This document shows, in pieces, positions 1,080 to 47,900 of a stretch of 64,000 bases of DNA (positions within the stretch are counted from its first letter, which is position 1; every line of letters starts with the position of its first letter). The notes under the pieces were generated by a model. It was not told the DNA's origin. It ran no database searches and saw only the letters and a list, made by a program, of their open reading frames with translations. This stretch comes from a virus, in IMG/VR virus record IMGVR_UViG_3300020478_001251, positions 1 to 64,000 of that record; one strand, given 5' to 3'. A program made the position numbers and the translations under genes.

Positions 1080-1700
1080 TTACTCGCCTCGGATTATTTT
1101 ATTAATTATATCTTCGGCCTTACAATATTGACCACAAGTTCTACCTTGTGTTTGAGATTTATCAACTCCCTCACTTAATGGATGCATAAAAGCACCATGT
1201 GTTGATGGATTACTTACGAAATCAAATGCGATTAATTCAAAATCTTTACCAACTTTCATCATTGGTTGTCCATTATCTTCCGAAACAGTCTCAACTGAAC
1301 CCATTCCACGAGAACTGATACCAAGTTTAATTCCATTTTTAAATAATTCTCTTAAAATGTTTCCACTTGGTGTTGTTAGTATTTCCACAGTCCCAACTAA
1401 ACTATCACCCTCAAAGTGCATTTCAGTTACATTATGTGATACATTTTGTAAATTAACTACCGAAGAGTCTGGATGGTCTAATTCACCAAGTGCTCTTTTT
1501 TGTTTTATAAAACCTTCATTATAATTCTTTGCTTCTCTTGTTAGTATCTCCATTGGATATACTCTACCATTTTGATTTTTAGCATCTGCTCTTTGTAATA
1601 CACCTTTAACAATTAACTTACCATTATTTTCTTTTAATGATTCTTGTATTTGTTGTGGTGATAAATCAAAAGGTATATAATCTACGATTAATTGTTTCAT
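1080..1700 (-). CDS. Prohead core protease, T4 gp21-like
   Basis: A 206-residue serine protease of the T4 gp21 (peptidase U9/S78-like) family. It matures the prohead by cutting scaffold and head proteins, classically after Glu in an (I/L)-x-E context. The diagnostic block GELDHPDSS (residues 72-80, His76) and the following NVSHN (His89) fit the conserved histidine region. KLGISSRGMGS (125-135) carries the expected catalytic serine. Length agrees with gp21 (about 210 residues). The ATG at 1700 overlaps the previous gene's stop by one base, suggesting coupled translation. The C-terminus has a Cys pair (TCGQYC) of unknown use. Position between portal-region genes and the scaffold-position gene is canonical. 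Confidence 0.88.
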   Translation of the reverse strand: MKQLIVDYIPFDLSPQQIQESLKENNGKLIVKGVLQRADAKNQNGRVYPMEILTREAKNYNEGFIKQKRALGELDHPDSSVVNLQNVSHNVTEMHFEGDSLVGTVEILTTPSGNILRELFKNGIKLGISSRGMGSVETVSEDNGQPMMKVGKDFELIAFDFVSNPSTHGAFMHPLSEGVDKSQTQGRTCGQYCKAEDIINKIIRGE

Positions 1701-2980
1701 TATTTCATCCTCTTTATCATTTGAACCGAATCTCTCATAAATTTGGTTACACCATCTTTATAGGATTTCTTAATTTCTTTTGCCAATTTTTTGTTTTCAG
1801 GTCTTGGGTCTCTTAGGAATGATTGTTCTAAATCCATCATTGCCTTTCTTAGTGATTTTTCTGACTTTACCACCTTAGATAATGCTCTTCTTGCAAACCT
1901 CACATCATCTGGACCCTCTTTTAATTCTTTTTGCATTAGAGCTCTATATTGAGCCGCTTTATCTACTGGTTTATCTTTTTTCTTTTTCTTAAACTTATCA
2001 ACTAATTTTGCAAATATACCTTTTGCCTTTTGATGTTGTGGATGTGATTTATTACTAAGAGCAGTAGACATTTTATTTACACGACCAGATTGTGGATTTT
2101 TAGCTTTCATTTGAACCATTGCTGCAGTTGCTGCCGCTACCGCCGCTGGATTCTCTTTTAGAAGTGATTCAAATGTTTGTTCTTTAGATAATCCCTGATT
2201 TATTAAATATTCTACAAAATTTTTCTGTTGATTTAATGGCATCTTACTAAAGGCCTTACCCATACCTTGAAGAGCTCTTTTACTATACTTTCTTGTTGGA
2301 TAATATTTCATCCCTTTTTTTAAAAAGAATTGGTCTTTCTTTGGTGCATCAGATAAATTATCTATATATTGCATACCACCTAAAATTCTCCTAATGGTTT
2401 CAGCTAATTGTCTATTATATCTCTTTCCATACCAACCAGCTCTTTTCATCATTCTCACACCAACTATCGTAAATAGTTTTAGTTCAGATGAACTAAGTCT
2501 TTCATTTATGGATTCATCAAAATCAAAATCAAATTCTTTTTCCATATCTTTCTTTGCCTGTTCTTTAGCTTTTCTTTCCATTTCTTTTTCATCTCTATCC
2601 ATCTTAGCATTTGCATCATCTGCCGCCTTACTCATCTTCTTTTCAATATCTTTTGCAGAACCTGGTTCTGGTTTTCTACCACTACCTGGCCCACCTTCAT
2701 CATACACATGAAGTTTGTCCCAACCAGGTGCTTTATTTTGTTTCCAACCACCTGAACCACTATGTGATTTTTTTCTATTTTTTTGTTTCCAACCACCTGA
2801 ACCACTATCGGATTCATAATCATCAGTCTTTTTTTGCTTCACACCTTTTTGAGGTCCACTTCCTGGCCCACCTTCTTTTTTTATCTTGTGAGCTTTCATA
2901 GTATCTTCAAGAGTAGGTAATGGTTGTCCAAATTCTCTTTTTAAAATATCTAAAGATTCTGTTAAATACTTATCGTTCAT
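1700..2980 (-). CDS. Head-associated protein with EGGPGSG motifs and duplicated Gly/Trp segment
   Basis: A 426-residue protein with no recognised enzymatic domain. The N-terminal 110 residues are low complexity. EGGPGSG occurs at 36-42 and again at 95-101. SGSGGWKQ occurs at 59-66 and 74-81, encoded by a 28-bp exact DNA repeat. A charged helical segment (110-155) follows. The C-terminal two thirds are basic and helical, with a poly-Lys patch. LKEG near residue 350 fits the T4 protease consensus L-x-E|G. EGGPGSG-type motifs recur in other phage head proteins. The gene lies between the portal and the prohead protease, so an internal head or core protein cut by that protease is a reasonable inference. 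Start ATG overlaps the upstream stop (ATGA). Confidence 0.65.
   Translation of the reverse strand: MNDKYLTESLDILKREFGQPLPTLEDTMKAHKIKKEGGPGSGPQKGVKQKKTDDYESDSGSGGWKQKNRKKSHSGSGGWKQNKAPGWDKLHVYDEGGPGSGRKPEPGSAKDIEKKMSKAADDANAKMDRDEKEMERKAKEQAKKDMEKEFDFDFDESINERLSSSELKLFTIVGVRMMKRAGWYGKRYNRQLAETIRRILGGMQYIDNLSDAPKKDQFFLKKGMKYYPTRKYSKRALQGMGKAFSKMPLNQQKNFVEYLINQGLSKEQTFESLLKENPAAVAAATAAMVQMKAKNPQSGRVNKMSTALSNKSHPQHQKAKGIFAKLVDKFKKKKKDKPVDKAAQYRALMQKELKEGPDDVRFARRALSKVVKSEKSLRKAMMDLEQSFLRDPRPENKKLAKEIKKSYKDGVTKFMRDSVQMIKRMK
2736..2808. repeat. 28-bp direct repeat inside head-protein gene
   Basis: Two identical 28-bp copies lie at 2736-2763 and 2781-2808, 45 nt (15 codons) apart and therefore in frame. 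They encode the repeated SGSGGWKQ-containing segment. Perfect identity suggests a recent duplication or active slippage/recombination that could change copy number without a frameshift. Confidence 0.9.
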
Positions 2981-4403: not shown

Positions 4404-6260
4404 TTATTTATCGGTCTTTTTATCTACAAATTCTTTATATTCTGATTCTATATCGTCTGTTACTTTCGTTTCCGTTATTATTTCAGCTGCCTTAGAAGAA
4501 TCTATTGATTTTTTAAGTGCATCATAATGAGCTAAAGCCATTTGGTTTTTTGATTTACCTAATGGATTTCTACCTCGAGCACTACCATCTTTATCATATT
4601 TTGATACTTCTTTTGGTCTACCAGCTCCTGGTTGGCCACCCTCAGGAGCCCCACCTTTGTCAAAGATTGAACCCATTGGTGATTCTTCAGTGTCTTGTTG
4701 TTCCCCATCTTCACCTGGCATCGTTGAGATTGATGCCAAATCACTTGGTGTTCCAACTGCTTCTTCACTGGTAACAGGGTCATTACCCTCAACAGCAATT
4801 TGTTCAAATCTAAATTTTTGTTTTTGGTCATCGACCAATTCTTTTTCTAATTCTTTAATATTATCATCTGAAAAATTAAATATATTTTTATAAATCCAAT
4901 CAGATGGTAGTAATTGATTATCTTTCATATCACGAGCAAGATTAACTTTATTACCCCACAATTCAAGTTTCTCTTGTTCGTAAATTGTAGATGGATTAGT
5001 TAGGTTTAATTCAAAGTTTACCAATTCTTCATCTGTATATCCTTGTGAATATAAATGAACAACTGCAATCTTTGTTAATTCACTAACTACAATTCTTTGT
5101 ATTCTTTCTATAGTTCTTGCAAACCTTACATCTTCTGCTGCAAGTGTTGCTTTACTTCCAAGTGATTCTTCATATCCTAAGAATGCTTTTGGAACATGAA
5201 GTGCTGCCAACATACGATTTTTTAAATACTCAATGTCATCAGTACTTTCATAAGTCATACCTGGTAGTGAATCAACTTGTGTTCCACTATCTCCACCACG
5301 AACTGGCATAAAGAAATCTTCAGTTAAATTCTGAATATTAAACTTCAAATTATAATCACCACTTGCTTCATCAATGAATGGTGTTTTCTTCATTTTGTTG
5401 ATAATTCTTTGCATATAGTTATCAACTTCATTTGGTGGTATATTTCCTATATCAATTTTAAATACTCTCTTTTCAGGTGCTCTCATGATTCTATGAATCA
5501 ACATAGCATCTTCCATCAATGTAACTTGTTTCCAAGTTTTACGAGCACTTTCTAACATTGATTTACCATAAGGTAAAAGATTACTATCACTTGCTAATCT
5601 AAAGTGTGCAATTTGGAAATTTTCAAAATCAATTCTTTTACCTTGACCAGTCGGTCTTGCAAAATATGGATGTGTAGTTTCCATCGCTTCTAAATAAAAT
5701 TTTACATAATAAGGATTCTCAGGGTCTTCTCCTTCTGAACGAAGACATTCATATGGTGATAGTGGAACTACATTTACAATACCATATTTATCCTTAACAT
5801 CTAAATATAAAAAGAAATCACCATACTTTGTTAGGTTACGAACCCATGGCCATAGATTGAATTCTATATTTAATATATCATAAAACAAGTTATGTAATAT
5901 TTCTCTAATATTATTATTATCACTTTTAATTTCTAAAACATCACCATAAGGATTTTTCATTGTAGATTCATCTGCATAGATATCCATTGCTGATGCAATG
6001 ATTGAATCAGCTTCCATAGTTTCATAATCTTTAAATAAACCTAATCTTGCGGCTTGTAATTGAGCAAATGTGGAATATCCACTATTCACCATATCTAATC
6101 CACTATGTAGTTTAGAATATCTATCTACAAGATGTGATTTCATTTGTCGTTGTACTTGGTCTGTATCGGCGATTTTTAATTTTTTACCACCTACATTTCT
6201 AACAATTACATTTGTACTAAATAATCGTCTTAGTCTACCAAATAATGATTTATCTGCCAT
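4404..6260 (-). CDS. Portal vertex protein, T4 gp20-like
   Basis: A 618-residue protein of the T4 gp20 portal family, which forms the dodecameric ring for DNA entry, terminase docking and tail joining. The core has the family's run of features: MDIYADESTM near residue 90, a hydrophobic/aromatic WPWVRNLTKYGDFFLYLDV stretch near 140, and RMLAALHVPKAFLGYEE near 350, a segment typical of gp20. T4 gp20 is 524 residues; the extra length is a low-complexity C-terminal tail (from about 490). The tail contains GGAPEGGQPGAGRPKE, a relative of the EGGPGSG motif in the neighbouring head protein. It lies 12 nt downstream of the terminase gene, as usual in this phage group. Confidence 0.9.
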   Translation of the reverse strand: MADKSLFGRLRRLFSTNVIVRNVGGKKLKIADTDQVQRQMKSHLVDRYSKLHSGLDMVNSGYSTFAQLQAARLGLFKDYETMEADSIIASAMDIYADESTMKNPYGDVLEIKSDNNNIREILHNLFYDILNIEFNLWPWVRNLTKYGDFFLYLDVKDKYGIVNVVPLSPYECLRSEGEDPENPYYVKFYLEAMETTHPYFARPTGQGKRIDFENFQIAHFRLASDSNLLPYGKSMLESARKTWKQVTLMEDAMLIHRIMRAPEKRVFKIDIGNIPPNEVDNYMQRIINKMKKTPFIDEASGDYNLKFNIQNLTEDFFMPVRGGDSGTQVDSLPGMTYESTDDIEYLKNRMLAALHVPKAFLGYEESLGSKATLAAEDVRFARTIERIQRIVVSELTKIAVVHLYSQGYTDEELVNFELNLTNPSTIYEQEKLELWGNKVNLARDMKDNQLLPSDWIYKNIFNFSDDNIKELEKELVDDQKQKFRFEQIAVEGNDPVTSEEAVGTPSDLASISTMPGEDGEQQDTEESPMGSIFDKGGAPEGGQPGAGRPKEVSKYDKDGSARGRNPLGKSKNQMALAHYDALKKSIDSSKAAEIITETKVTDDIESEYKEFVDKKTDK

Positions 6261-6272
6261 TTTTTACCTCAC

Positions 6273-7847
6273 TTACAAGAGCCACTTTAAAGACTCTTTC
6301 TCTTTATCTTTACCAATTTCCCAATCCCAAGATTCATTCTTGTTTTCATCGGGTGTATAAAGTCCATCAATATCTAACATTTTATTGAGAGACTTTTTTG
6401 TTAATTCAATTCCTTCAGTTCGTAATCTTAATGCGGTATCACGAACCCATAAACCGATAGCAAATGACATAACTAAATCATCATTGTATCCTACCATTGC
6501 TTCGGCTCTATTATTCTTATAAATAAAAGTAAATAATTCATCAATCAAACGATTACTACGAACTATTACACTTCCATCTCTAAAATATTCCTCTAACTTT
6601 GCAATAATTAAAGGTCTTGTTCTGGCAGTAGTACTAAACCCTGCTACCATATTCTTTTCTTCTGCTCTATATCGATTATTTATTTGATGTTGTGTATCGA
6701 TATATTTTAAATCTTTACTTGTATAAAATAGATTAGGATATTCCCTATCTATTACTTGTTGGATGGTTGCCCAACCAATATTGTTGTTTTCTATAATTAG
6801 TAAAGCATCGTTATATTCCGTTGAAATACTCACTAACATATTACCAAAATCTTTGGTACTTAACCTACCTTTATATTCCGCTACTTGTTGAACACTCTCT
6901 ACATCGATAACATGAAATGCACTATAATCTGCACTATCACCTCTACCAACATCAGCACTCACAACATAATTTCGTGTATAATTTGGTTGTTCCCATATCC
7001 ACAAATTACCATCTATACCTCGTTTTTCAACAGGGTCTTGTACTTGTTTACTTCTACACTCCTCTAAAATCGGTCCATCAATTACTGAAGTTCCAGAAGT
7101 GATAAAATCACAATCACATTCTTGAGCCGCACCTTGTAATCCTAATAAGGTATCTTGTTCATCTCTCCACTCTTGTTCTCTATCAGGATGAACAGTCCAA
7201 TGAAGTTTAATATCATTAAACATTCCACGACCTTCTTCGGCCTCTACCCAAGTTCTGTGAAACCAATTACCCACACCATTAGGTGTTGAGAGTGCAATAC
7301 AACTACCACCCGTTGTAAGTGTTTGTTGTGATGCAGTCCATATCTCATCAATCTTATCAATGAACGCCGCCTCATCTAATATCAATAATGATAGAGCTTC
7401 AGAACGAGCCGCTTCTGGACCACTTGCACTTGCTTTTATTTGTGAACCATTAACATATCGAAGATTTAATTTATTATCTTCAACACATCGTTGTTTTAAC
7501 CAACTCGGTAAGTTGGCATGCATTACTCTTACTTTTGTAACTAAGTTTTTTGCAGTATCTTGTTTTGTTGCAATAACCAAGATATTTTTATCTTGAAAGA
7601 ATGTCATCATCCATAAAGAATATCCAGCAGTTAATGTTGATATTCCTAACTGGCGTGCTTTCAGAATAATATTAAATCTCTCTTTAGTAAATTCCTCTAC
7701 AGTCTTCTCTTGAAAGTCATACAAATCAAAAGGTATCTTGCCTTTTATTGGATGTTGTATCATACAATACTTCTTTAAAAAGTAGACTGGGTCTTTTGCA
7801 CACTTTGTGTACTCTTTTTTAATTACTTCTTTTATCTGAGTTGCCAT
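6273..7847 (-). CDS. terL: Terminase large subunit, T4 gp17-like
   Basis: A 524-residue DNA-packaging motor with an N-terminal ATPase and a C-terminal RNase H-fold nuclease. The deviant Walker A typical of gp17-type terminases is seen as ARQLGIST (64-71). Walker B is LLILDEA (154-160) with the catalytic Glu159. The nuclease metal ligands appear as SADVGRGDSADYS (near 300), LIIENNN (near 355) and YNDDLVMSFAIG (near 470). No intein or frameshift interrupts it. It overlaps the previous gene by one nucleotide (TAATG) and is followed by the portal, the standard order. The family assignment is firm; which small subunit partners it here is not obvious. Confidence 0.95.
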   Translation of the reverse strand: MATQIKEVIKKEYTKCAKDPVYFLKKYCMIQHPIKGKIPFDLYDFQEKTVEEFTKERFNIILKARQLGISTLTAGYSLWMMTFFQDKNILVIATKQDTAKNLVTKVRVMHANLPSWLKQRCVEDNKLNLRYVNGSQIKASASGPEAARSEALSLLILDEAAFIDKIDEIWTASQQTLTTGGSCIALSTPNGVGNWFHRTWVEAEEGRGMFNDIKLHWTVHPDREQEWRDEQDTLLGLQGAAQECDCDFITSGTSVIDGPILEECRSKQVQDPVEKRGIDGNLWIWEQPNYTRNYVVSADVGRGDSADYSAFHVIDVESVQQVAEYKGRLSTKDFGNMLVSISTEYNDALLIIENNNIGWATIQQVIDREYPNLFYTSKDLKYIDTQHQINNRYRAEEKNMVAGFSTTARTRPLIIAKLEEYFRDGSVIVRSNRLIDELFTFIYKNNRAEAMVGYNDDLVMSFAIGLWVRDTALRLRTEGIELTKKSLNKMLDIDGLYTPDENKNESWDWEIGKDKEKESLKWLL

Positions 7848-9333: not shown

Positions 9334-12300
9334 CTATCCAAATTTCAAACTACCCAATATCTGATTGATTGGTGCGAATGCTCCTGTGAACTTATATATC
9401 TTTCCTTTATATTTGAAAACTATACCTTCACTTGGAACTATTGCATTTGTTCCACCAATTGCATGTAATTTCTCTATTTGTATTTTTAATTGTTTTAATT
9501 TTTGAACATTACCACCACCCTTTAAATCATTTAAAGCTTTGATAACTTCTTTTCTCATTTTTTGAACAGTCAAATCTGGTGATACTGCAATAAATCCTGA
9601 AATATTTTTTAATATTTCTGCACCAACTGAAAAGAATAATATCTCAAATGGTTTTATATTTTGTTTAAACAACTTTATATGATTTATTTTATCCGTACTT
9701 AATATCCAATCTAAAAATTTTGGATTATTTTTAAAATCTTTTTTAATCATTCCAATCTTATATGACTTATCAAAGAATGCCCAACGATTAACCAAACTAA
9801 CATACTGATTTGGTTTTAAACTTACCTTAAATTGTTTAGATGCATTGAACACATATTCTCTCCAATACGCTTCGTGATAACTACCTAATGTATCCGAATC
9901 TTTCAATGCATATTGTTTTTGTAATCTTAATAATTGTCCTAAAAATTTACTTTTCATCTTACCAAAGTTTTGAACTTTTGGTACAGTCAAAAAATTAGGT
10001 TTACCAATTTTAAAAACACCTTGTATATGTGCATTTATTTGTCTAATCATACCTGCTAACATTCTAGCACTATCCTTTGGTTGTCCAATCGGTTTACCAC
10101 TTACATCATACTCTAATGTTCCATGAAATACTATTTCACAAACATCATAATCAATAACATTTGCTGTTGCTGGATACATAATCTCTAAATTCATCCATCT
10201 TTTACCATTTCCAAAAACTTTTTCTTTTTGTGCAACACTTAAACCACCTATTGCTTTTTCTAAATCACTCATCGCAAAAACAAAAGCTTTCTTAATATTA
10301 CCTCTACCAGCAAACATACTTTTTATACCACTCGTGGTAGGTGCAGTTTTACCATAATTTTTTAAATGGCCTTTGTTACGAGCTGCTCTTAATTTCCCAT
10401 CAACCCAACTTATCATTAAGTTTTGTCCGTCAAGTTTCTCTGTAACTCCATCTTCTCTGGCAAGTGTTCCACCTAACCCATTAATAATTATCTGTTTCAA
10501 ATCTGAAAATGTAAGATTATTGTCATCAAAAGGATGAGACATATGTCCATAAGCTCCACCCATAAGTAGTAACTCCTTTGTTTCGTTTGTTATATCTATT
10601 TGTTCTTGTATTTTTTTAATTTTTTCTACACCCTTTGTTGATGTTTTCATATCATGTGTTAATGAATCTTTCATCTTAGCAGTAGGTTTACCGAAGAATT
10701 TTACAATTTCCCATCCCAATTTCTTTGCCATATTTGTCATATGTGCTCTGTATTTTGGAAATGGTTTATCTACACTATCTTCATTAGATGTTTTCTGATT
10801 TATTGTTTTACCAAATGTGACTGTATCTACTCTATCTTGTACATAAGTAAAATCATATCCAGGGTCAGTTGCTCTATCATAATTTACAATATCATCAATC
10901 ATATCCCATCCTAAAATTTCTGCATGTCTTGGTGATACTCGTTTATAATCTTTAAAATCATTAAAGAAATCATATAAACCCTCATCATCTAAATCACTTG
11001 CATTAAAATGTGCCCCATGTGCACTTACTTCTTTTACTAATTTTTTTACTGATGGTTGATTATAAAATTCAAATAATTTTTTAAACTTATTTGTCAACAT
11101 ATTGTAAACACCTTGATTATAATAACCAAATAATTTTTTAAATATTTTAGGTCTATCTTCTTCTTTAACTTTAGGTGAACCCAAAATATTTCTCATTGTA
11201 GTACCTGATATTTCATTACCACCAATTTTCATACTAACATGCGGAGCAACCATATAATACCCATGCTCTTCATGTCCTTTTAAATTATTTCTATTTTTAT
11301 TAAAATCTTGGAAATAAGATAATCCACCTGTTTTCTTTCTACCACCTTTTAATCTACCTGCATCTTTCTTACCAAAAATATAAACAACTGCAGTAGTTTC
11401 TGGGTCGAATTTTTTAAGTAATGAGGCAGCTACTAATGGTGATTTTTCAAAGACAATACGACTCTTAGGAACACCCATCATAGACATATGACGAGCTTTT
11501 TCCGCAAAGTTCATTGGGTGTCTTGGTAACGATTTAATATTAGATGTGGCTATATATGCTATATCAACCTTAGATTGTAACCATTTAAAAGTCTTAAAAT
11601 GGTGAGGCCCAAACGGCTGAAACCGTCCACCATAAACACCTACTATTGTTTTAATTTTTGATTTCTTTTCATTCAAATTGGTTGCATTATCCCCACTTTC
11701 TATACTTGAATATACAACATTTTCCATATATAAGTCAAGCTTTTTTTCAAGATTTTCTACTGGTTCATAACCTCTTTTCTTTTTGTTTTTCGTTGTTTGG
11801 TGTCCAGGTTTATTATGTGTAGTTCCATCATCATCTCCATCATAAGTGTCTGGTTCTGCTAATTTGCCCATAGTACCTGAACCTTGAGAACCAGCGTGAT
11901 GTCCTGAAAAAGATTTTTCTATATCTGTACCTGGTTCATCTTTTACTTTATTTCCCTTTTTAATTTTATCTTTTACCTTATTTGGTAATGAAGCTTCTGC
12001 TCTTTGTTGTCTTAATTTTTTCTTCCACTTCTTTCTACCTTTTGCACTTGGTGATGGAATTACTCCAGCAGGTGCACCAAACTCTTCACCTAAAAACTTT
12101 TTCGTTTCTAAATCTTTTATCTTATCACCAATCTGTCTTCCTCTTAATCCAATAAACTCATCACCACCAACCTTAACTGATAATTTAAATGTTGATAATT
12201 TTTTAAAATCTTTTCCAATCATTTTACCATATTGTAGAATTTGTAGTGGTGTTAAAGAAGTTTTCTCTTGTGCCTTTTTTACCATATAAATGTCTCGTGG

Positions 12301-14253
12301 TTTAAAACTATTTAGATAAACTAAAAATTGAATGTTACTAACTTCTTTACCACTATACTTTAATAAGTTCAACACCTTTCCTAATCTCTGTACTTTATTA
12401 CCTCTTAAAATAAATGATAAAAATAAAATATAATCCTTGACATTTGGATAAGGTTTTTGTAACTTTAAACCTGGAAATATTTGTTTTGTAAATCCAAACT
12501 TATCACAAGCCTCCATAAATAATTTAGATGATTTCCCTTTCTGAATTGCCTTTATAAACTCTTCCCTAATTCTTTCCCCACTTACACCATGTAAACTTGG
12601 ATTCTTTAATAAAGCTATTTCTGTTTCTTTATCCATCTTACCACCAACTACTGCTTGAAATCTTAATGCTCGTAACTTTCTTAATGGGTCTTCATCAAAT
12701 CTTCTTTTAGGACTACCGACTGTTTTAATTATTTTTGCTTTTAAATCTTTTAATCCACCAGTTAAATCTACAACTTGATTAGTTCCTATATCATAGAATA
12801 ATGAATTGATTGTTAAATCTCTACGATTAACATCACCTTTTATATCTGAAAAATCTACTGCGGTTGGTCTTCTACCTCTACCAATATCTTTTCTAAATGT
12901 AGCAATCTCGTGTCCACCCACAACCACTACTCCAAATGATTTACCTACTTCATATGTTTTGAATCCACCTTGTTTTGCAATCTTCAATACTTCATCTGGT
13001 TTTGCATCTGTGGCTAAATCGAAATCTTTTGGTGCTTTACCAAGAATTGCATCACGAACTGCTCCACCCACGATATATAATTGTTTTTTATTTTTCCTAA
13101 ATAATCTATACAACCCTTTAATATCACCAGGAACTTTTAACATAATTCTATTATTTGATTCTGCAACAACATCCGTATCTTTAATAGCACTTTTTTTCTT
13201 TTTCTTATCTGTAGTAACATAAGTATCATATTTATCTGCTGGTGAATGTTCGTATTGTCTAATTTTTAAATTTAATTTAGATTTATAATCTTTTGGTAAT
13301 GTATTTTCAATTCCTAAAAACTTAACTGCTCCTGGTATCAAATATAAAGTCATTTCTCTTTTATTTAAATTCATCATAACTTGACTTGAAGTCCATAATT
13401 TATTTTGAGCCCTAACTAAATCATACTTAGCACCTTTATTTTGAGTATGATTATAAAACGATGGAAATACTTTTTTATAGTCATCCGTTTTATCTATAAT
13501 ATCCATTGCATTTTTCATTCTCAGCTGTGAAGATAATTTATCAGGACCTCTTTGATATCCTTGTTCTGGGTGTTCTATTCCATGATTAGTTCTAACGATT
13601 GATGATTTATCTATATTATGAATTTTAACTAATGGTTTAGTTCTACTTGTATTTTCAATAACCACTACCTTTTTACCATCACTTACAATTGTATGTCCTT
13701 TAACACCACCTTTAAATTTTACAAGTGAATCTACAACTTTTTTTAATGTTTTCTTTCCTAATGCCTCACGAATTCTTTCTCCATCTTTAGACATTGCTTT
13801 CTTTTTCTTTGCTTTATCAAAATCTTTTTCATCTCTTTTTACAAATAATGCTGAATTAACCAATCCTATTCCATAAGAATTCATACCTTCTGACCAGTCT
13901 GTATCTTGGTCTATTACATAACAAACTTCAACACCATAACCATTTAATTCCCTAACAACTTTTAAATTTGGATTATAATTTCTATCACGATTTTTTCCAA
14001 TTACAACATCATCACCGAATTTTTTTGAGAATGCAACGCACTCATCCACTTGTTCTTCTTTAGGAACAACTCTAAATTTTAATGCCGGCCTATCGTTGAT
14101 AAGTAAATCACCTTTTTCATTCCATTTGATAGATTTAATCTTAACTTTTTTATTTTTAAATCTACCCATCTTGACTGTATCACCAATCTCAATTGGTAAA
14201 TCTACACTCTCATCGATAAGTGGCTTGATTAACCATTCTGTTAATTGAGTCAC
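9334..14253 (-). CDS. Giant fusion: CCA/poly(A)-polymerase head + NMN-adenylyltransferase-like + RNA/DNA-ligase-like protein
   Basis: A 1639-residue protein with three different nucleotidyl-transfer domains. (a) About 385-640: a class II CCA-adding/poly(A)-polymerase head, with YIVGGAVRDAILG, the DFDLAT metal ligands (410-412) and NRRDLTIN (477-479). (b) About 868-1060: an HxGH-class cytidylyltransferase fold with YGGRFQPFGPHH (874-885) and ISGTTMR (1015-1021), as in NMN/nicotinate adenylyltransferases. (c) About 1225-1639: a covalent nucleotidyltransferase (ligase/capping fold), with EKLDGQN (Lys1273), EGIVFKYKGK (1609-1618) and YKFTG (1620-1624). The N-terminal 50 residues carry an LPIEIGDT/FKNKKVKIKSI module. 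I choose the GTG at 14253, just after the upstream stop, with AGGA upstream. A longer GTG frame from 14310 is entirely overlap. A nucleic-acid repair and NAD role is inferred from the domains. Confidence 0.8.
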   Translation of the reverse strand: MTQLTEWLIKPLIDESVDLPIEIGDTVKMGRFKNKKVKIKSIKWNEKGDLLINDRPALKFRVVPKEEQVDECVAFSKKFGDDVVIGKNRDRNYNPNLKVVRELNGYGVEVCYVIDQDTDWSEGMNSYGIGLVNSALFVKRDEKDFDKAKKKKAMSKDGERIREALGKKTLKKVVDSLVKFKGGVKGHTIVSDGKKVVVIENTSRTKPLVKIHNIDKSSIVRTNHGIEHPEQGYQRGPDKLSSQLRMKNAMDIIDKTDDYKKVFPSFYNHTQNKGAKYDLVRAQNKLWTSSQVMMNLNKREMTLYLIPGAVKFLGIENTLPKDYKSKLNLKIRQYEHSPADKYDTYVTTDKKKKKSAIKDTDVVAESNNRIMLKVPGDIKGLYRLFRKNKKQLYIVGGAVRDAILGKAPKDFDLATDAKPDEVLKIAKQGGFKTYEVGKSFGVVVVGGHEIATFRKDIGRGRRPTAVDFSDIKGDVNRRDLTINSLFYDIGTNQVVDLTGGLKDLKAKIIKTVGSPKRRFDEDPLRKLRALRFQAVVGGKMDKETEIALLKNPSLHGVSGERIREEFIKAIQKGKSSKLFMEACDKFGFTKQIFPGLKLQKPYPNVKDYILFLSFILRGNKVQRLGKVLNLLKYSGKEVSNIQFLVYLNSFKPRDIYMVKKAQEKTSLTPLQILQYGKMIGKDFKKLSTFKLSVKVGGDEFIGLRGRQIGDKIKDLETKKFLGEEFGAPAGVIPSPSAKGRKKWKKKLRQQRAEASLPNKVKDKIKKGNKVKDEPGTDIEKSFSGHHAGSQGSGTMGKLAEPDTYDGDDDGTTHNKPGHQTTKNKKKRGYEPVENLEKKLDLYMENVVYSSIESGDNATNLNEKKSKIKTIVGVYGGRFQPFGPHHFKTFKWLQSKVDIAYIATSNIKSLPRHPMNFAEKARHMSMMGVPKSRIVFEKSPLVAASLLKKFDPETTAVVYIFGKKDAGRLKGGRKKTGGLSYFQDFNKNRNNLKGHEEHGYYMVAPHVSMKIGGNEISGTTMRNILGSPKVKEEDRPKIFKKLFGYYNQGVYNMLTNKFKKLFEFYNQPSVKKLVKEVSAHGAHFNASDLDDEGLYDFFNDFKDYKRVSPRHAEILGWDMIDDIVNYDRATDPGYDFTYVQDRVDTVTFGKTINQKTSNEDSVDKPFPKYRAHMTNMAKKLGWEIVKFFGKPTAKMKDSLTHDMKTSTKGVEKIKKIQEQIDITNETKELLLMGGAYGHMSHPFDDNNLTFSDLKQIIINGLGGTLAREDGVTEKLDGQNLMISWVDGKLRAARNKGHLKNYGKTAPTTSGIKSMFAGRGNIKKAFVFAMSDLEKAIGGLSVAQKEKVFGNGKRWMNLEIMYPATANVIDYDVCEIVFHGTLEYDVSGKPIGQPKDSARMLAGMIRQINAHIQGVFKIGKPNFLTVPKVQNFGKMKSKFLGQLLRLQKQYALKDSDTLGSYHEAYWREYVFNASKQFKVSLKPNQYVSLVNRWAFFDKSYKIGMIKKDFKNNPKFLDWILSTDKINHIKLFKQNIKPFEILFFSVGAEILKNISGFIAVSPDLTVQKMRKEVIKALNDLKGGGNVQKLKQLKIQIEKLHAIGGTNAIVPSEGIVFKYKGKIYKFTGAFAPINQILGSLKFG

Positions 14254-14254
14254 T

Positions 14255-15268
14255 TTACCACTTCCTACATGACCAATAACGAGCCTTATGTCTCGGGCCT
14301 GGATTATCACAATTGTGTCGTGCTCTAAAAGACTTTCTTGCCTTTGGATTAGATTTTCTAATTCTCATAGTTTTATCTTTACCACCTGCCCCAAAATTAA
14401 CTTTAACTACATTACCAGCGGGATTTTTTACATATACTTTAAACTTTTTTACATCACCTTGCATTGGCTTACCAAGTTTTACTTTACGACCTTGATATTC
14501 AGCTTCATTTAATTCTTTAGTTCTAAGGTATTCAAAGGTATATCCATATCCTTTACCTTCTGATTCATAAAAGATTTCCATTTCTTCCTTTACACAATTA
14601 GGAACTTTTCTACCATTTTTATCTTTCATTCCATATTGTTTATATCCTACCCAACAAGCTTCGTTTGTTGTAGTTTTTACAGATTCTTTTTTAGATTTAT
14701 TACCCCAATTTTTTGCACCAACTTTTCTACATTTTACCAATGCACCACTAGCGTAAGCAGAAGGCCATACATCATAACGAGATTTTACTTTATGATAACA
14801 CGCATCTTTTTCACCAGCTGCCTCATCAAATTGAGCTTCCGTAATTGGTTTACCTACTAACTCTTCTAACTTCATTTTACTCTCCACTTTCGTTTTTACT
14901 CTAATGGGTGCTTTACCTTGTCCAGCAGATTTCTTACCACCACGATTAGCTTTATTTTGTGCTGCTCTTTTTCTACGAACTGCACTTGTTTTTTGTTTTT
15001 TACTCATACTACGAGCCTTTGATGCAGGAACACATTTAGCATACGCTTGTTTTTCACCACTTGTTCCACATTCAGGATGTTTACCACTTTTATCTTTCTT
15101 TCCGATATTCACCCATTTGTCTTTAAACCATTTTCTTAAATTTTCATTCGTAATATTATCGGCGATGAGTCTTTCTTGTAAGTCATTTTTAAGTCTCATC
15201 TTATCTCCTGATGACATTCTTAATCTTTTCTTTCCAATTTCTCTCGGTTCATCTATGTGAAATTCCAT
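14255..15268 (-). CDS. Concatenated Cys-rich phage modules (DUF5872-type)
   Basis: A 337-residue, highly basic protein made of short modules that occur separately in many marine phages. (a) Residues 45-110 (WVNIGKKDKSGKHPECGTSG, then YAKCVPASKARSM and an RRKRAAQ tail), DUF5872-like. (b) Residues 150-190 (DACYHKVKSRYDVWPSAYAS, ALVKCRK). (c) Residues 205-232 (ACWVGYKQYGMKDKNGRKVP, NCVKE). (d) C-terminal residues 305-337 (RKSFRARHNCDNPGPRHKAR, YWSCRKW). Each has a Cys pair with His or aromatic residues, suggesting small metal- or nucleic-acid-binding folds. Family names are from memory. The gene ends 1 nt before the GTG of the giant fusion gene. Function unknown; a virion or DNA-associated role is a guess. 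Confidence 0.65.
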   Translation of the reverse strand: MEFHIDEPREIGKKRLRMSSGDKMRLKNDLQERLIADNITNENLRKWFKDKWVNIGKKDKSGKHPECGTSGEKQAYAKCVPASKARSMSKKQKTSAVRRKRAAQNKANRGGKKSAGQGKAPIRVKTKVESKMKLEELVGKPITEAQFDEAAGEKDACYHKVKSRYDVWPSAYASGALVKCRKVGAKNWGNKSKKESVKTTTNEACWVGYKQYGMKDKNGRKVPNCVKEEMEIFYESEGKGYGYTFEYLRTKELNEAEYQGRKVKLGKPMQGDVKKFKVYVKNPAGNVVKVNFGAGGKDKTMRIRKSNPKARKSFRARHNCDNPGPRHKARYWSCRKW

Positions 15269-16215: not shown

Positions 16216-16698
16216 TTAAACTGATAATGCTCTTTTAAACCATCCGAACAAAAATCTTTCTTGTTCTGGTTTCTTGTTAACTAAATCGTAATAATGTTTC
16301 ATTCTATAACAACGAACTCTATCTATAGATGGTTTATAAGTTTCTAATGCACCTTTAGTGCCTGGTCCAAATCCACCATCAACTGCTAAATCCGCACCTT
16401 TACCATTACAAGCTCGTTGTAAAATTCTTACTGCTGTTCCTCTACCTTGATTAACACACATATCAAAAAAGATATGTTTTAATTGGTCATCAAGTTCATC
16501 AACTTTATTTTTATCCCAATAATCTCTTTTATAAATTTCTTTTGCACCCTCTTTAGTAAGGTTTTTAATATCTACATCTGGATAGAATCTTTTTGCTATT
16601 CCGTAATTAGTTTCACCACCTAAATCTTTTGGGTCGTGAACATATCCGCCTTCGTGATGTAGTGTTACTTCTATAATTTCATCAAAAGTAGTTAACAT
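16216..16698 (-). CDS. Endolysin, glycoside hydrolase family 108 with peptidoglycan-binding C-terminus
   Basis: A 160-residue N-acetylmuramidase. The GH108 signature HHEGGYVHDPKDLGGETNYG (14-33) contains the catalytic Glu16. IYKRDYWDKNKVDEL and FFDMCVNQGRGTAVRILQRA are further family blocks. The C-terminal part (AVDGGFGPGTKGALE) matches the PG_binding_3 region common in this family. There is no signal peptide, so release should depend on a holin. I start at the ATG at 16698, which has GGGAGAA upstream and follows the kinase stop by 1 nt. The longer frame from 16833 lies wholly inside the kinase gene and would add an unrelated 45-residue extension. Confidence 0.92.
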   Translation of the reverse strand: MLTTFDEIIEVTLHHEGGYVHDPKDLGGETNYGIAKRFYPDVDIKNLTKEGAKEIYKRDYWDKNKVDELDDQLKHIFFDMCVNQGRGTAVRILQRACNGKGADLAVDGGFGPGTKGALETYKPSIDRVRCYRMKHYYDLVNKKPEQERFLFGWFKRALSV

Positions 16699-16699
16699 T

Positions 16700-17470
16700 T
16701 TATTTTCTCCCTTTATGTCTAAGTATGATTTGTTTTTCAACCCATTTTCTTCCAAGTGGGTTTTTGATAGGCATGTTAGCAAATTTTCTAACAACCTTAG
16801 TAACCAATGGTACAAATTTTGCCTCCGCTTCATCTTCGTCTAAATGTTTTGAATTATCAATTATGACGAAATTTCCTTTAAATAAATTCTGAAAAGCACC
16901 AATGTTCTTTTGAACATCAGTCCAACTTTTCTTTAATAATTGTGGTGGTAATACTCTATCTCTTTCTTGATTTCTTTTTTGTGCTACTTCTAATGATGTG
17001 TTAACCATTACCATATATGTATCGTATCCGTCTTCTTCTAACATTTTTTTCATAGTATGTATTTTACCGAAGTCGTGTCCTGTCCCATCAATAATCATAC
17101 CCAACTTACCTTGTTGGTATAATTTCATTCTCTGTTTAGTAAGAGATTTAGCAAAAGTTCTCAATCCACTATCTACATCTTGTGGTTTACTAACCATATC
17201 TTTTGATGTACCTGTTAACTGAGCAAAAACTTCATCTGGCATTTTATCTAAATCTGTTCCGAATCCATACTTGTGTAGTAAGAATTTAAGTTCTTTATCT
17301 GAGTTAACCATCTTCATACCACTCATAGAAATATTAAACTTCTCAGGTATACCAAATAGATTTTTTGCCACATAAGTTTTACCACTTCCAGGACCACCTG
17401 CAAGAAAAACGGCTTTGAAGATACCAGCATCTGCTATACCTTCTTGTAATAAATCTGACAACCTTATCAT
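16700..17470 (-). CDS. P-loop kinase (zeta-toxin / polynucleotide-kinase-like)
   Basis: A 256-residue nucleotide kinase-like protein. Walker A is FLAGGPGSGKTYVAK (residues 22-36). MVNSDKELK follows where zeta-type kinases have their conserved N-D segment. GMIIDGTGHDFGK is the Walker B-like strand, and NQERDRVLPPQLLKKSW a lid with Arg residues. No phosphatase domain is visible, unlike full T4 Pnk. The substrate could be a 5' nucleic-acid end, a nucleotide sugar or another small molecule. Its closeness to the CCA/ligase fusion makes a nucleic-acid end-healing kinase attractive but unproven. Overlaps the previous gene by one nucleotide. Confidence 0.75.
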   Translation of the reverse strand: MIRLSDLLQEGIADAGIFKAVFLAGGPGSGKTYVAKNLFGIPEKFNISMSGMKMVNSDKELKFLLHKYGFGTDLDKMPDEVFAQLTGTSKDMVSKPQDVDSGLRTFAKSLTKQRMKLYQQGKLGMIIDGTGHDFGKIHTMKKMLEEDGYDTYMVMVNTSLEVAQKRNQERDRVLPPQLLKKSWTDVQKNIGAFQNLFKGNFVIIDNSKHLDEDEAEAKFVPLVTKVVRKFANMPIKNPLGRKWVEKQIILRHKGRK

Positions 17471-42648: not shown

Positions 42649-43689
42649 TTAATCAAATGGATTATCGTTACTTCCCTTATTGTGTACCAAGAATGTTTTA
42701 CCAAAATATACATCCAATGGTTCTACATCAATCTGAACTACTTCGAATCCATCTTCACTTTGAACCTTTTCTAAACTTGTAATTAAAACTTCATTTCCAT
42801 TCTTATCCATTAAATGTCCACCAGTCAACATATTTGGAACTAAATTCCACATCCAAGTATTTTCACCAACTGGTTTATATAACATTTCATGTTCACCTGT
42901 AATTCTCTCTTCTCCGTTATTTATATTCCAATAACTTTGAACAAAATCAAAATTAATATCTTGAATACTGGCCGAATGTATTGTAAATGATTCTGTTTTT
43001 TCATCTGGAAACCTACAACTTCTCCAATCATCATTATCTTCATCTAACTGACCTGGCATTTCCATTGATTTTATCCACTCTCCAATATTCAACTCTTCAA
43101 CCTTTTTATATGAACCATCTGCCATTTCTATTTTTGTTCCCTCTAATAAACAACTTGGTGAACCACCATAACTATCAACAATAGTTACAGCCTTTGTTCT
43201 TGAAGTATTATAATTAGTTGCATGGTCATTATACCCATCAGTTTGTCCATCTTCTTTAAACTTAACACTAACATTCATACTAATATTATTTGTTCCTGCG
43301 GGAAACCAATCACTATCATCACCTGTGCCAGTATTTGCATTTGATATTGCAGCGGCTGCAAACGAACCTGTAGCTCCTTGATTGGTAAGTGTTGCACCAG
43401 AAGTACTTAAACTCCATTCAAAGTTACTTGTTCCTTTTCCAATCTTATCATTAAACTTAGAACCTTTACCAGTAAAACCTAACACATAAGTTTCTGTAGT
43501 ACTTTCCCAAACATAATTATACCCAGTCAAACTATCAACTGATGTGATTGAAAAATCACTCATTTTAGTTGTAGTTGGACTTCCACCAGCTTCAGATAAT
43601 GAAGTTCGTGTGGTATAATTAGAACGAGAACCACTCACGGCTCTTCCTAATTTTCCTAATGATAATATTTGTGCTGCTGTTGTTGCCAT
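42649..43689 (-). CDS. Fibre-like protein with C-terminal Hint (intein-like) domain, short
   Basis: A 346-residue protein. Residues 1-179 are beta-rich and Ser/Thr/Gly/Asn-rich (TTKMSDFSITSVDSLTGYNY, NTGTGDDSDWFPAGTNN), virion-like. Residues 180-346 (DNA 42652-43152) form a Hint domain: CLLEGTKIEMADGSYKKVEE with the block A Cys180, RITGEHEMLYKP with the block B His, and FLVHNKGS, the HN junction. After the HN there is Lys, not Cys/Ser/Thr, so splicing is unlikely; N-terminal cleavage or transfer at Cys180 is possible. The gene follows a TATTTATA element. A second Hint protein lies at 44927-50179. Confidence 0.75.
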   Translation of the reverse strand: MATTAAQILSLGKLGRAVSGSRSNYTTRTSLSEAGGSPTTTKMSDFSITSVDSLTGYNYVWESTTETYVLGFTGKGSKFNDKIGKGTSNFEWSLSTSGATLTNQGATGSFAAAAISNANTGTGDDSDWFPAGTNNISMNVSVKFKEDGQTDGYNDHATNYNTSRTKAVTIVDSYGGSPSCLLEGTKIEMADGSYKKVEELNIGEWIKSMEMPGQLDEDNDDWRSCRFPDEKTESFTIHSASIQDINFDFVQSYWNINNGEERITGEHEMLYKPVGENTWMWNLVPNMLTGGHLMDKNGNEVLITSLEKVQSEDGFEVVQIDVEPLDVYFGKTFLVHNKGSNDNPFD

Positions 43690-44926: not shown

Positions 44927-47900
44927 TTAAGGTGCTTTTCCTGCATTATGAACAGCAATAGCATTATCACCAAGTTTTACAAAATAAGTATTATTATCCT
45001 CAACATCTAACTTAACAAACAACGCTTCAGATTCAGTATAATTTATCGTTTTAATACTCACAAGTTCTTTATTTGAATTAACTAATTTATCAGTATATTT
45101 ATCTAACGACTTAGCCCTTACCCAACAATATTTAGGTGTAGCTTCTGTAATATTTCCATCATTATTTAATGATAAATCTCTATACACTAAGAATGGATGT
45201 TCATATGTTGATTTTATACTATTATCATTTTCATCAATTATTTCATAATGGTCATAATAATAATCTTGTCCATTAAATACTGCATCTGAATCTGTTATTG
45301 ATGCACCCGCAATTGAACCTGTTGACCAAAAACCATAATCACCAAAATTATCACTATTTGGTAAACCATCAATATTCATAGATTTTAATGAATCTGTTAA
45401 TGTTACATCTTCAATATTTTTCCAAGTTCCATCATTCATCCATACTTTAGTTCCTAATGCAAAACAAGTTGTACCAGTACCACCTGATTCATCAAATACA
45501 TTAACATTTACTTTCACTGCTTTCTTATTCAATCCAGCAGTTTCAGAGTTGTAAAATGCTTTAATAACATAATTCTCTTCAATAGTACCTTCAGCAGTAA
45601 TTCCTGTCTCCATACCCAAAGCAACAAAAGCTTTTGAATTATCATCGGTCATATCACCACCAACCCAAAGTTTAATTGTATCTAATGCAGATACTTCATT
45701 TGAAATGGCACCTGAGAATCCACTATATGCTTCTGTAGTTGCAGTTTGATTTTGTAATTTAACTCTTAAAGTTGTTGTACCATCCGTACTAACTGCACCA
45801 GCCGAACCTGTTCTTCCAATATTCAAATGCATTTTCATACCAGAACCAGCAGTTCCTGGGAAATTATTATTACTTGTATCATTAATGTGAAAATATACTT
45901 CGACATCATCTGTTCCAGAAAGTTCACCCGATTCCACACTCGTTCCACCTATCCACCAAATTTCATCACCTTGTCCTTGATATCCTGAAATGTTAACATC
46001 ATATGGATATGTTAATGGTGTTCCAGGAACTCTCCATACCAACGCATCATTTGCACTGACAGTGAATGAATGATTATTTGCAAGATTTCCACTTGTTGAA
46101 CTTGGATAACCACCATATTTACAATAAATTGTCCAACTACCAGGTTCTAATGATACAGAACTAAATGTAAATGGTCCTGTTCCTGTGGTAGTTCCTAAGT
46201 TTTTCCAACTTGAACCATTATAAGCTCCAAAATAAAGTGTGGCATCATTATTGACTGTAATAGTTCCACTATTTACAGCTCCACCAAATTGATTTACACC
46301 ATTTCTTGAATTCCTAACATTCGCTCCATTAGTATAACTACCATTTGTTACTGAAGTTACAGATTTTCCAGTTGAATTTGCCGCTAATGCAGAATATCCA
46401 CCATTATTCCATTCAAACCCAACTGCATCATTAATAGAACTATTTCTTGTCCAAGTAAACGCTACAGTCTTTGTTGTTGCTTTACCGGTTATTGTAACCG
46501 ACCTATCATTATTTGCACCATATGTATAATCAGCTAAATCACCTATGGAACTAACCGAGGCACCCGTTGTAGTTTGTGAAGAAGCTAAACTTGATATTGC
46601 ATCTGGTGGTATTGCCAGTTCATCGTAATATTCATCAATCCCACCATCTGCACCTATTTTCATCACATCATTATTATATGCACTCAAACCACTATTCCAT
46701 TGATAGTTATGATAATATTGATTAGCACCATCTGTAATAGCAACTGACCCATCTGCCATAAGTTTATAAACTTCAGTTCCATCACCAACAGGGTCATTAA
46801 GGTCTCCATAAATTCTACAATCACTTCCAGCTGCACCACCTCCTGTTGTATCATTAAATGCACCTTCTGGTGTAGAATAACCACCAGACCATTTTCCTGT
46901 AGAACTATTACAGGATTGATAAGTAGTCAATGTGTTTGGATGGTTTAAACTAACAGAAGTGGTAAATAAAACTGGTGAAACAGTCGGGTCATTAGTTGTA
47001 TCATGATTTTGAAATGTAAAACGAACTTTAGCTGTTGTTGTTCCAGTTCCTACAGCGGCATCTACATATCCTAAATTTATAACCTCATCAACAATTTCAC
47101 GCTCAGTTGTATGACTATCATCTATATTAGAAAGTGTAACTGATGTTGTATTACCAGTCGAAGTAGAATAACCGACTGTATTACTACCATCAGATAAATC
47201 TATCACTACATTCATGGCAGAAGCACCAAGTTGTCTAAATCCTTGATATGTAAAATCCTCGACCACTAATTGGTCTGATTCTACACCAACTTTTAAACTT
47301 GTTTTGTTTAAACTCATCGCACTTATCGCAGGATAATGATACAATGCAATTCCAACTGCTGTTGCAGATGTTGTATCAGAATCAGAACCACCCTCACAAG
47401 TAATATCAAGTGTTACTGTCCCAGTTCCTGCAGTTCCTGTTGCCGTTAATAATGCCGTAGATGTAGATGCATCACTAATTGACCAAACGGCAGTATTATC
47501 ACTATAAGCATAAGTAACAACATTATCTGTTGCATTTGTTGGTGAATTAAAATGTAATGTTGTATCTGTACTATTATTTAAAGTAGTTCTAAATATTGTG
47601 GCTGGTGCACTAATTACATTTTTACTATTAGTTGCATCTGGATAAAGTTGATATCGAGCTGATGCATTTGCAGTTCCAGATTCATCCGAAGTAGATGCAC
47701 CACCATTATCATCAACATAAGAATTATCATTATATGGCACCATTCTATAATAATAATTTGTAGTGTTTGTAGAATGACCATCAAGTGTAATAGAAGTACC
47801 TGTAGTTGTTTTACCACTAACATTTCCCCAAGTGACATCATCGGAAGACCTTTGTAGTTGGTAATATGCCGCATATGTACTTGCATTAAAACTTACAGAT

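Follow-up and report, generated by a model that had tools for sequence, protein, structure and literature searches.

A candidate head-packaged polyprotein with exchangeable enzyme modules and prohead-protease-type border sites in a T4-like marine phage

Polyvalent proteins of phages, as described by Iyer et al. 2017 (PMC5512222), include Pol-beta nucleotidyltransferases, and their packaging and injection have been predicted. In its main text, that description mentions RNA ligases only as not associating with its 2H domains, and it contains no mention of CCA enzymes or of choloylglycine/Ntn hydrolases. A second point of reference are the internal proteins of phage T4. The T4 prohead protease gp21 cleaves after L/I-X-E, and in the leader of IPII/IPIII residues 4 and 7 function in targeting and residues 8 and 10 in processing (PMC9026906). 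Moreover, a study of cyanophage virion proteomes identified NMNAT-like proteins and kinases by mass spectrometry in purified virions from several cyanomyoviruses, where the authors could not exclude co-purification (PMC10665884). A literature search, which left subscription journals mostly outside its reach, retrieved no earlier description of a phage polyprotein cut by a prohead protease. Here a gene is presented that shares features with these systems.

Enzyme domains of the polyprotein

The gene is located at 9334..14253 on the minus strand of the window, the stretch of 64,000 nucleotides analyzed in this study. It runs from a GTG start at 14253 to a stop at 9334 and encodes 1639 residues, the length given in an earlier note on this DNA; the reading frame is complete and uninterrupted in the virus record of 83,277 bases that contains the window. 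A longer GTG frame starting at 14310 is possible; the start used in relatives is the equivalent of 14253. Every motif quoted in the earlier note is found in the order and regions given there, with GGAVRD/DFD/RRD followed by GGRFQPFGPHH/ISGTTMR and then by KLDGQN/EGIVFKY/YKFTG. The three nucleotidyl-transfer domains deduced from these motifs fare differently, since family or fold evidence identifies the CCA/poly(A) polymerase and the HIGH domain, whereas the ligase-like domain is recognized by its motifs. A fourth enzyme, an N-terminal-nucleophile (Ntn) hydrolase at residues 72–365, had been overlooked, as had small domains at residues 16–71 and 1076–1217. The polyprotein thus holds several disparate enzyme domains, namely an Ntn hydrolase, a CCA/poly(A) polymerase, an NMNAT-like and a ligase-like domain.

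The chain opens with a capsid-targeting-like leader (residues 1–15; 14209..14253, minus strand), to which we return below, and a small beta domain (IEIGDTVKMGRFKNKKVKIKSI..., residues 16–71; 14041..14208, minus strand), which displays beta strands in the structural model and is a movable module in relatives. The adjoining residues 72–365 (13159..14040, minus strand) are assigned to the Ntn hydrolases of the isopenicillin N acyltransferase/C45-like type, with Cys72 as nucleophile directly behind the putative cut VDE|C. The fold assignment came from structure: isopenicillin N acyltransferase is matched by the predicted model in both its precursor and its mature form (Foldseek, 2x1c, E=1.5e-9), while a PDB sequence search with the Ntn profile gave nothing useful and Pfam AAT is matched by 8 of 29 members (best 2.4e-6). 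Cys72 and the surrounding Ntn motifs are invariant, and a glutamate precedes the cysteine in all aligned members but one. The sole exception, the standalone copy L287, begins with Met-Cys, which fits a cysteine that must become the N-terminus. With acyl-CoA:isopenicillin N acyltransferase (C45) the module has the fold, the Cys nucleophile at a cleavable bond and the NRD and TNH motifs in common; it differs in belonging to a viral branch with standalone copies in other viruses. Such standalone Ntn hydrolases (L271–L302) comprise about 275 aa, are roughly 40–45% identical and are encoded on other viral contigs. Standalone Ntn hydrolases are also found in Chryseobacterium phages MA9V-1 and MA9V-2, and no relatives were returned when viral contigs were scanned with the protein from the Chryseobacterium phage as query.

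Residues 366–745 (12019..13158, minus strand), with the putative cut VAE|S at their start, comprise head, neck and body of a class II CCA-adding enzyme or poly(A) polymerase. Judged by sequence this identity is certain, as the matches to Pfam PolyA_pol (E=3e-29), the PHROG tRNA nucleotidyltransferase (2e-57) and a PDB poly(A) polymerase (1e-30) are all strong. The earlier note had recognized the head and proposed to look for neck and body; both follow the head (PolyA_pol_RNAbd, 2e-7), and conservation runs through them. GGAVRD, DFD, RRD and DPLRKLRALRF are largely invariant among relatives. The head, neck and body motifs (GGxxRD, DxD, RRD, DPLRxLRxxRF) are those of class II enzymes in general, whereas the version in the polyprotein is an embedded cassette. 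For one relative (L041) the HD region was considered as a separate cassette of its own, an idea weakened by the PHROG tRNA nucleotidyltransferase model, which spans the HD. The module is followed by a basic low-complexity linker (residues 746–862; 11668..12018, minus strand) ending at the putative cut LNE|K.

Residues 863–1075 (11029..11667, minus strand), which end at the putative cut LVKE|V, are assigned to the HIGH superfamily with a NadM/NMNAT-like fold and the motifs GGRFQPFGPHH and ISGTTMR. Pfam CTP_transf_like is weak in the window member, yet is matched by 49 of 50 relatives (best 9e-11). In a profile search the archaeal NMNAT MJ0541 aligns to the HIGH profile at 8e-5 with both motifs in register, and comparison of the predicted fold with NadM 2qjo gives 1e-4. 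The claim of an HxGH-class adenylyltransferase is therefore upheld for the NMNAT-like fold and the S(S/G)TxxR motif, but not for a canonical HxGH, which is replaced by GPHH in the window member and in 78 of 98 distinct relatives. Canonical HSGH, HPGH or HKGH occurs in 13 of the 98, and the last histidine as well as SGT..R are invariant. Compared with NadM-type NMN adenylyltransferases, fold and both motif regions are shared, whereas the module carries GPHH in place of HxGH and no Nudix domain was seen. The small 'mid' module behind it (residues 1076–1217; 10603..11028, minus strand), whose core has no PHROG match, ends at the putative cut KIQE|Q.

The constant C-terminal domain (residues 1218–1639; 9337..10602, minus strand) contains EKLDGQN, ARNK, NLEIMYP, EGIVFKY and YKFTG, so that motifs I to V of covalent nucleotidyltransferases are present in order. 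Pfam RNA_ligase is matched weakly by 41 of 52 relatives (best 7e-4), and when its profile is compared with that of the T4 Rnl2 family, EKLDGQN falls on EKIHGTN and RNK on KRTG (P=0.0026). Motif I has the KxDG form with a subsequent R, and the motif III/IV glutamate of the superfamily is present; the motif I lysine, RN and the motif IV glutamate are invariant. However, motif V reads K-F-T in the window member and K-x-T (K-F/L/Y-T) in all scored relatives, not K-x-K. The structural model of HIGH, 'mid' and ligase-like domain did not provide a reliable ligase fold: the Foldseek matches listed are HIGH-superfamily enzymes, and pLDDT is below 50 at motif I and motifs IV/V of the ligase-like domain. 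A PDB sequence search with the ligase-like profile gave nothing useful. Hence, of the ligase-fold nucleotidyltransferase proposed earlier, the ordered motifs stand while the second lysine of motif V is lost and the fold model is weak at the motifs; a third nucleotidyl-transfer domain of ligase-like type is likely. T4 Rnl2-type RNA ligases (Pfam RNA_ligase) have motif I and RN in common with the polyprotein domain and show the later motifs in the same order, whereas the polyprotein domain lacks the second lysine of motif V and has a long helical insert. Among annotated phages, the domain is found only in Microcystis phage Mel-JY01 (gene at 11243-13162 of PP395634) and two uncultured huge phages. 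Copies in uncultured phages with genomes >460 kb are L345 and L337 (LR756500, LR756508), and a copy also lies on a 410 kb contig labelled Firmicutes (L351).

Module exchange and genomic context

Scans of IMG/VR yielded hundreds of relatives, mostly on close marine-type contigs. By comparison, bacterial and archaeal genome contigs contributed only six, mostly on short, MAG-binned and viral-looking contigs. The 93 distinct complete homologues display 36 module architectures. Typically, the leader and the small beta domain come first; Ntn, CCA, kinase and unnamed modules, which are exchangeable, occupy the next part, and HIGH and 'mid' precede the ligase-like domain. HIGH and 'mid' are sometimes permuted or trailed by inserts; the ligase-like domain is nearly always last. 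Most relatives lack the CCA module and carry the acylase-like Ntn hydrolase or a zeta-toxin-like kinase in its place. Among the ORFs with the kinase cassette (Pfam Zeta_toxin), 64 are fusions and 49 encode the kinase alone. In the window this kinase type, an internal polyprotein cassette in relatives, is encoded by a separate gene (16700..17470, minus strand) as a zeta-toxin-like P-loop kinase behind the 10-residue leader MIRLSDLLQE|G; the gene overlaps a GH108 endolysin gene (16216-16833, minus strand). Several insert modules are unnamed by Pfam and PHROGs; some appear ParB-like, HNH-like or ADP-ribosyltransferase-like by eye, and no assignment is claimed for them. A MAFFT alignment of residues 1–745 with single-module relatives (A5) was left out because modules were misaligned. 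Such swapping of cassettes from phage to phage is what one would expect of arms-race effectors.

Downstream of the polyprotein gene, the large terminase subunit is encoded in 162 of the 168 loci with room for it, the portal protein in 137/137 and the protease in 30/38, and thus the gene sits in the head module. In the window these genes, all on the minus strand, are found at 6273..7847 (terminase large subunit), 4404..6260 (gp20-like portal protein) and 1080..1700 (T4 gp21-like prohead protease; Peptidase_S77, Pfam E=2.8e-25; PHROG head maturation protease, 8e-52). Situated between portal and protease genes (1700-2980, minus strand) is a reading frame with repeated E|GGPGSG motifs and no PHROG match, which is probably a core protein.

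Within the structural half of the genome (18303-42631 of the window, minus strand), an extended series of genes resembling a sugar epimerase, glycosyltransferases, SGNH, radical-SAM and methyltransferase proteins can be discerned by eye. Hint-like ends (CLLEGTKI..., CFALGTKV..., HN) are carried by large proteins of virion type encoded at 42649-43689 and 44927-50179 of the window and at L353:13957-18789, the last with a Pfam Vint match of 4.5e-19.

The motif at module borders

The module starts share a common feature. The motif [I/L/V]-x-E directly precedes 174 of 191 distinct starts (91%), compared with 18% for random and 42% for shuffled windows, and among 91 P3-class/P1 combinations none of the other 90 comes near. 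It is found in front of six module families, with 42/46 starts for HIGH, 59/62 for 'mid', 19/21 for Ntn, 11/12 for CCA, 16/18 for the kinase and 27/32 for the ligase-like domain. In the window member, cuts are predicted after E15, E71, E365, E862, E1075 and E1217. The site LIxE|GGAY that precedes the ligase-like domain in many relatives has M in this member, the nearest site being KIQE|Q at 1217. For Microcystis phage Mel-JY01, a cut is predicted at ...IIAE|GGLGGHM. At the HIGH border P1' is Q, D, E or K, as opposed to A/G/S elsewhere. Since [ILV]xE is also present inside folded domains of the window polyprotein, accessibility must decide cutting.

The N-terminus points in the same direction. 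The leader MTQLTEWLIKPLIDE|S, with its GTG start and a putative cut after E15 (LIDE|S), has its start in register with the T4 IPII/IPIII leader, MKTYQEFIAE|A; 30 leader variants are found in relatives. In the kinase, the first residue after [ILV]xE is identical irrespective of whether the cassette is internal or standalone behind the ten-residue leader MIKLxDLLxE|G, which matches the T4 IPII/IPIII leader in length and register. Moreover, the major capsid protein (gp23) of relatives contains LIDE|AS or LIQE|AS at a place that would correspond to the T4 gp23 processing site. Given the prohead-protease-type sites at module starts, the domains probably end as separate proteins.

Similar sites can be observed in neighboring and more distant proteins. 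Just upstream of the polyprotein gene, a very basic 337-aa protein (14255-15268, minus strand) with a weak DUF5872 match contains several sites of the type [IL]xE|A, such as PITE|A and LNE|A, and is possibly a second cut-apart internal protein. In Pelagibacter phage HTVC008M (L355:4004-6453), adjoining kinase (MIPFILKE|GLYDPGIFK...) and cytidyltransferase (MKTLKELL...) genes have leader-like starts, and the cytidyltransferase chain has internal IIRE|N and LINE|N sites; the theme may therefore extend to isolated pelagiphages and cyanophages.

Interpretation and relation to known systems

The best explanation, with a probability of about 0.7, is that a T4-like marine phage packages the protein into its head as a 'polyvalent' polyprotein, which is cut by gp21 and whose enzymes are injected. 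The N-terminal leader would direct the polyprotein to the prohead core, where a gp21-like prohead protease would cleave after [I/L/V]-x-E at the module borders; the Ntn module may cleave its own E71|C72 bond. The predicted products are an Ntn acylase-like hydrolase, a CCA/poly(A)-adding enzyme, an NMNAT-like adenylyltransferase, the small 'mid' protein and a ligase-like protein. Once freed, the enzymes would be injected together with the DNA and be active during the initial minutes after infection, with host RNA, NAD and an amide or acyl substrate as candidate targets. The domains, their modular arrangement, the enrichment of the motif, the likeness of the leader and the conserved gene order are observed in the sequences, whereas packaging, cleavage, injection and the individual substrates are inferred from them. 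On balance we also favor a broader view, in which marine T4-like phages possess a general plug-in cargo system: any enzyme could be inserted behind a prohead-protease site in a head-targeted polyprotein, and separated enzymes in varying combinations would be delivered by the virion as infection begins.

In the earlier note, it had been suggested that this one chain could restore 3'-CCA ends, produce NAD+ or adenylylate a substrate, and join ends. An intact multi-enzyme chain of this kind, acting in the infected cell by tRNA repair (CCA addition and sealing) and NAD+ supply against host defence, would be in line with the genuine CCA and NMNAT-like domains, with the presence of a ligase-like domain and with the CCA enzymes, RNA ligases and NAD+ synthesis genes that phages are known to carry as counter-defence (PMC7824862; PMC9503650). 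However, most relatives have functionally unrelated modules where the CCA module is swapped out, the prohead-protease-type sites at the borders suggest separation, and the gene lies among head genes. In addition, no tRNA gene was found in the virus record, and no NadV or other RNA-repair gene was recognized in its scanned parts. This reading is thus unlikely for the chain as a whole. For single products, counter-defence by NAD or tRNA repair is possible, and a role of the individual products as early-infection phage enzymes against host defence is plausible.

Quite improbable, too, is that the polyprotein is packaged but enzymatically dead, serving as a head scaffold or DNA-condensing protein derived from enzyme relics. 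The loss of the first histidine of HxGH to glycine in most members, the threonine in place of the second motif V lysine of the ligase-like domain in all scored members and the very basic linkers could be read in this way, but the conservation described above argues against it and covers the CCA motifs, the Ntn cysteine with its neighboring motifs, the last histidine and SGT..R of the HIGH module, in which some members have canonical HSGH, and the motif I lysine, RN and motif IV glutamate of the ligase-like domain. Finally, the protein could be a late structural or assembly enzyme remaining uncut in the virion, and [ILV]xE a by-product of helix caps at domain edges. This would agree with the synteny with head genes and with the part of the enrichment that composition accounts for (42% in shuffled windows), but is very improbable, as one motif precedes six unrelated module families and recurs in standalone leaders, and the distance between motif and domain is variable although P3 and P1 are conserved.

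If the preferred reading of a packaged, gp21-cleaved polyprotein is true, one abundant family of uncultured ocean phages obtains the effectors it injects by cutting up a polyprotein, which would explain how enzymes as unrelated as an acylase-like hydrolase, a CCA enzyme, an NMNAT, a kinase and a ligase-like protein reach the virion together. The content injected by such phages at time zero would then be testable by ordinary virion mass spectrometry, and [I/L/V]xE could be used to predict the cargo of other T4-like phages, isolates included, and the borders of its modules.

Among known systems, T4 IPI–IPIII and Alt share with the polyprotein a short N-terminal leader and a gp21-type L/I-x-E site, and the T4 proteins are injected with the DNA. 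However, the T4 internal proteins are encoded by single genes with one leader each, whereas here several enzymes are joined in one precursor with a site before each. The NMNAT-like protein and the kinase are types in common with the cyanomyovirus virion proteins, which were described as separate proteins (PMC10665884). With polyvalent proteins (Iyer et al. 2017, PMC5512222), the polyprotein has in common that unrelated enzyme domains are joined and exchangeable and that the gene lies beside late virion genes. Processing of polyvalent proteins was proposed to occur mainly by zincin-like or assemblin-like peptidases within the chain, whereas the cutter proposed here is a separate gp21-like protease with its motif before each module. 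In conclusion, polyvalent proteins are the closest known kind, from which the polyprotein differs in its proposed use of a gp21-like protease and in its cargo.
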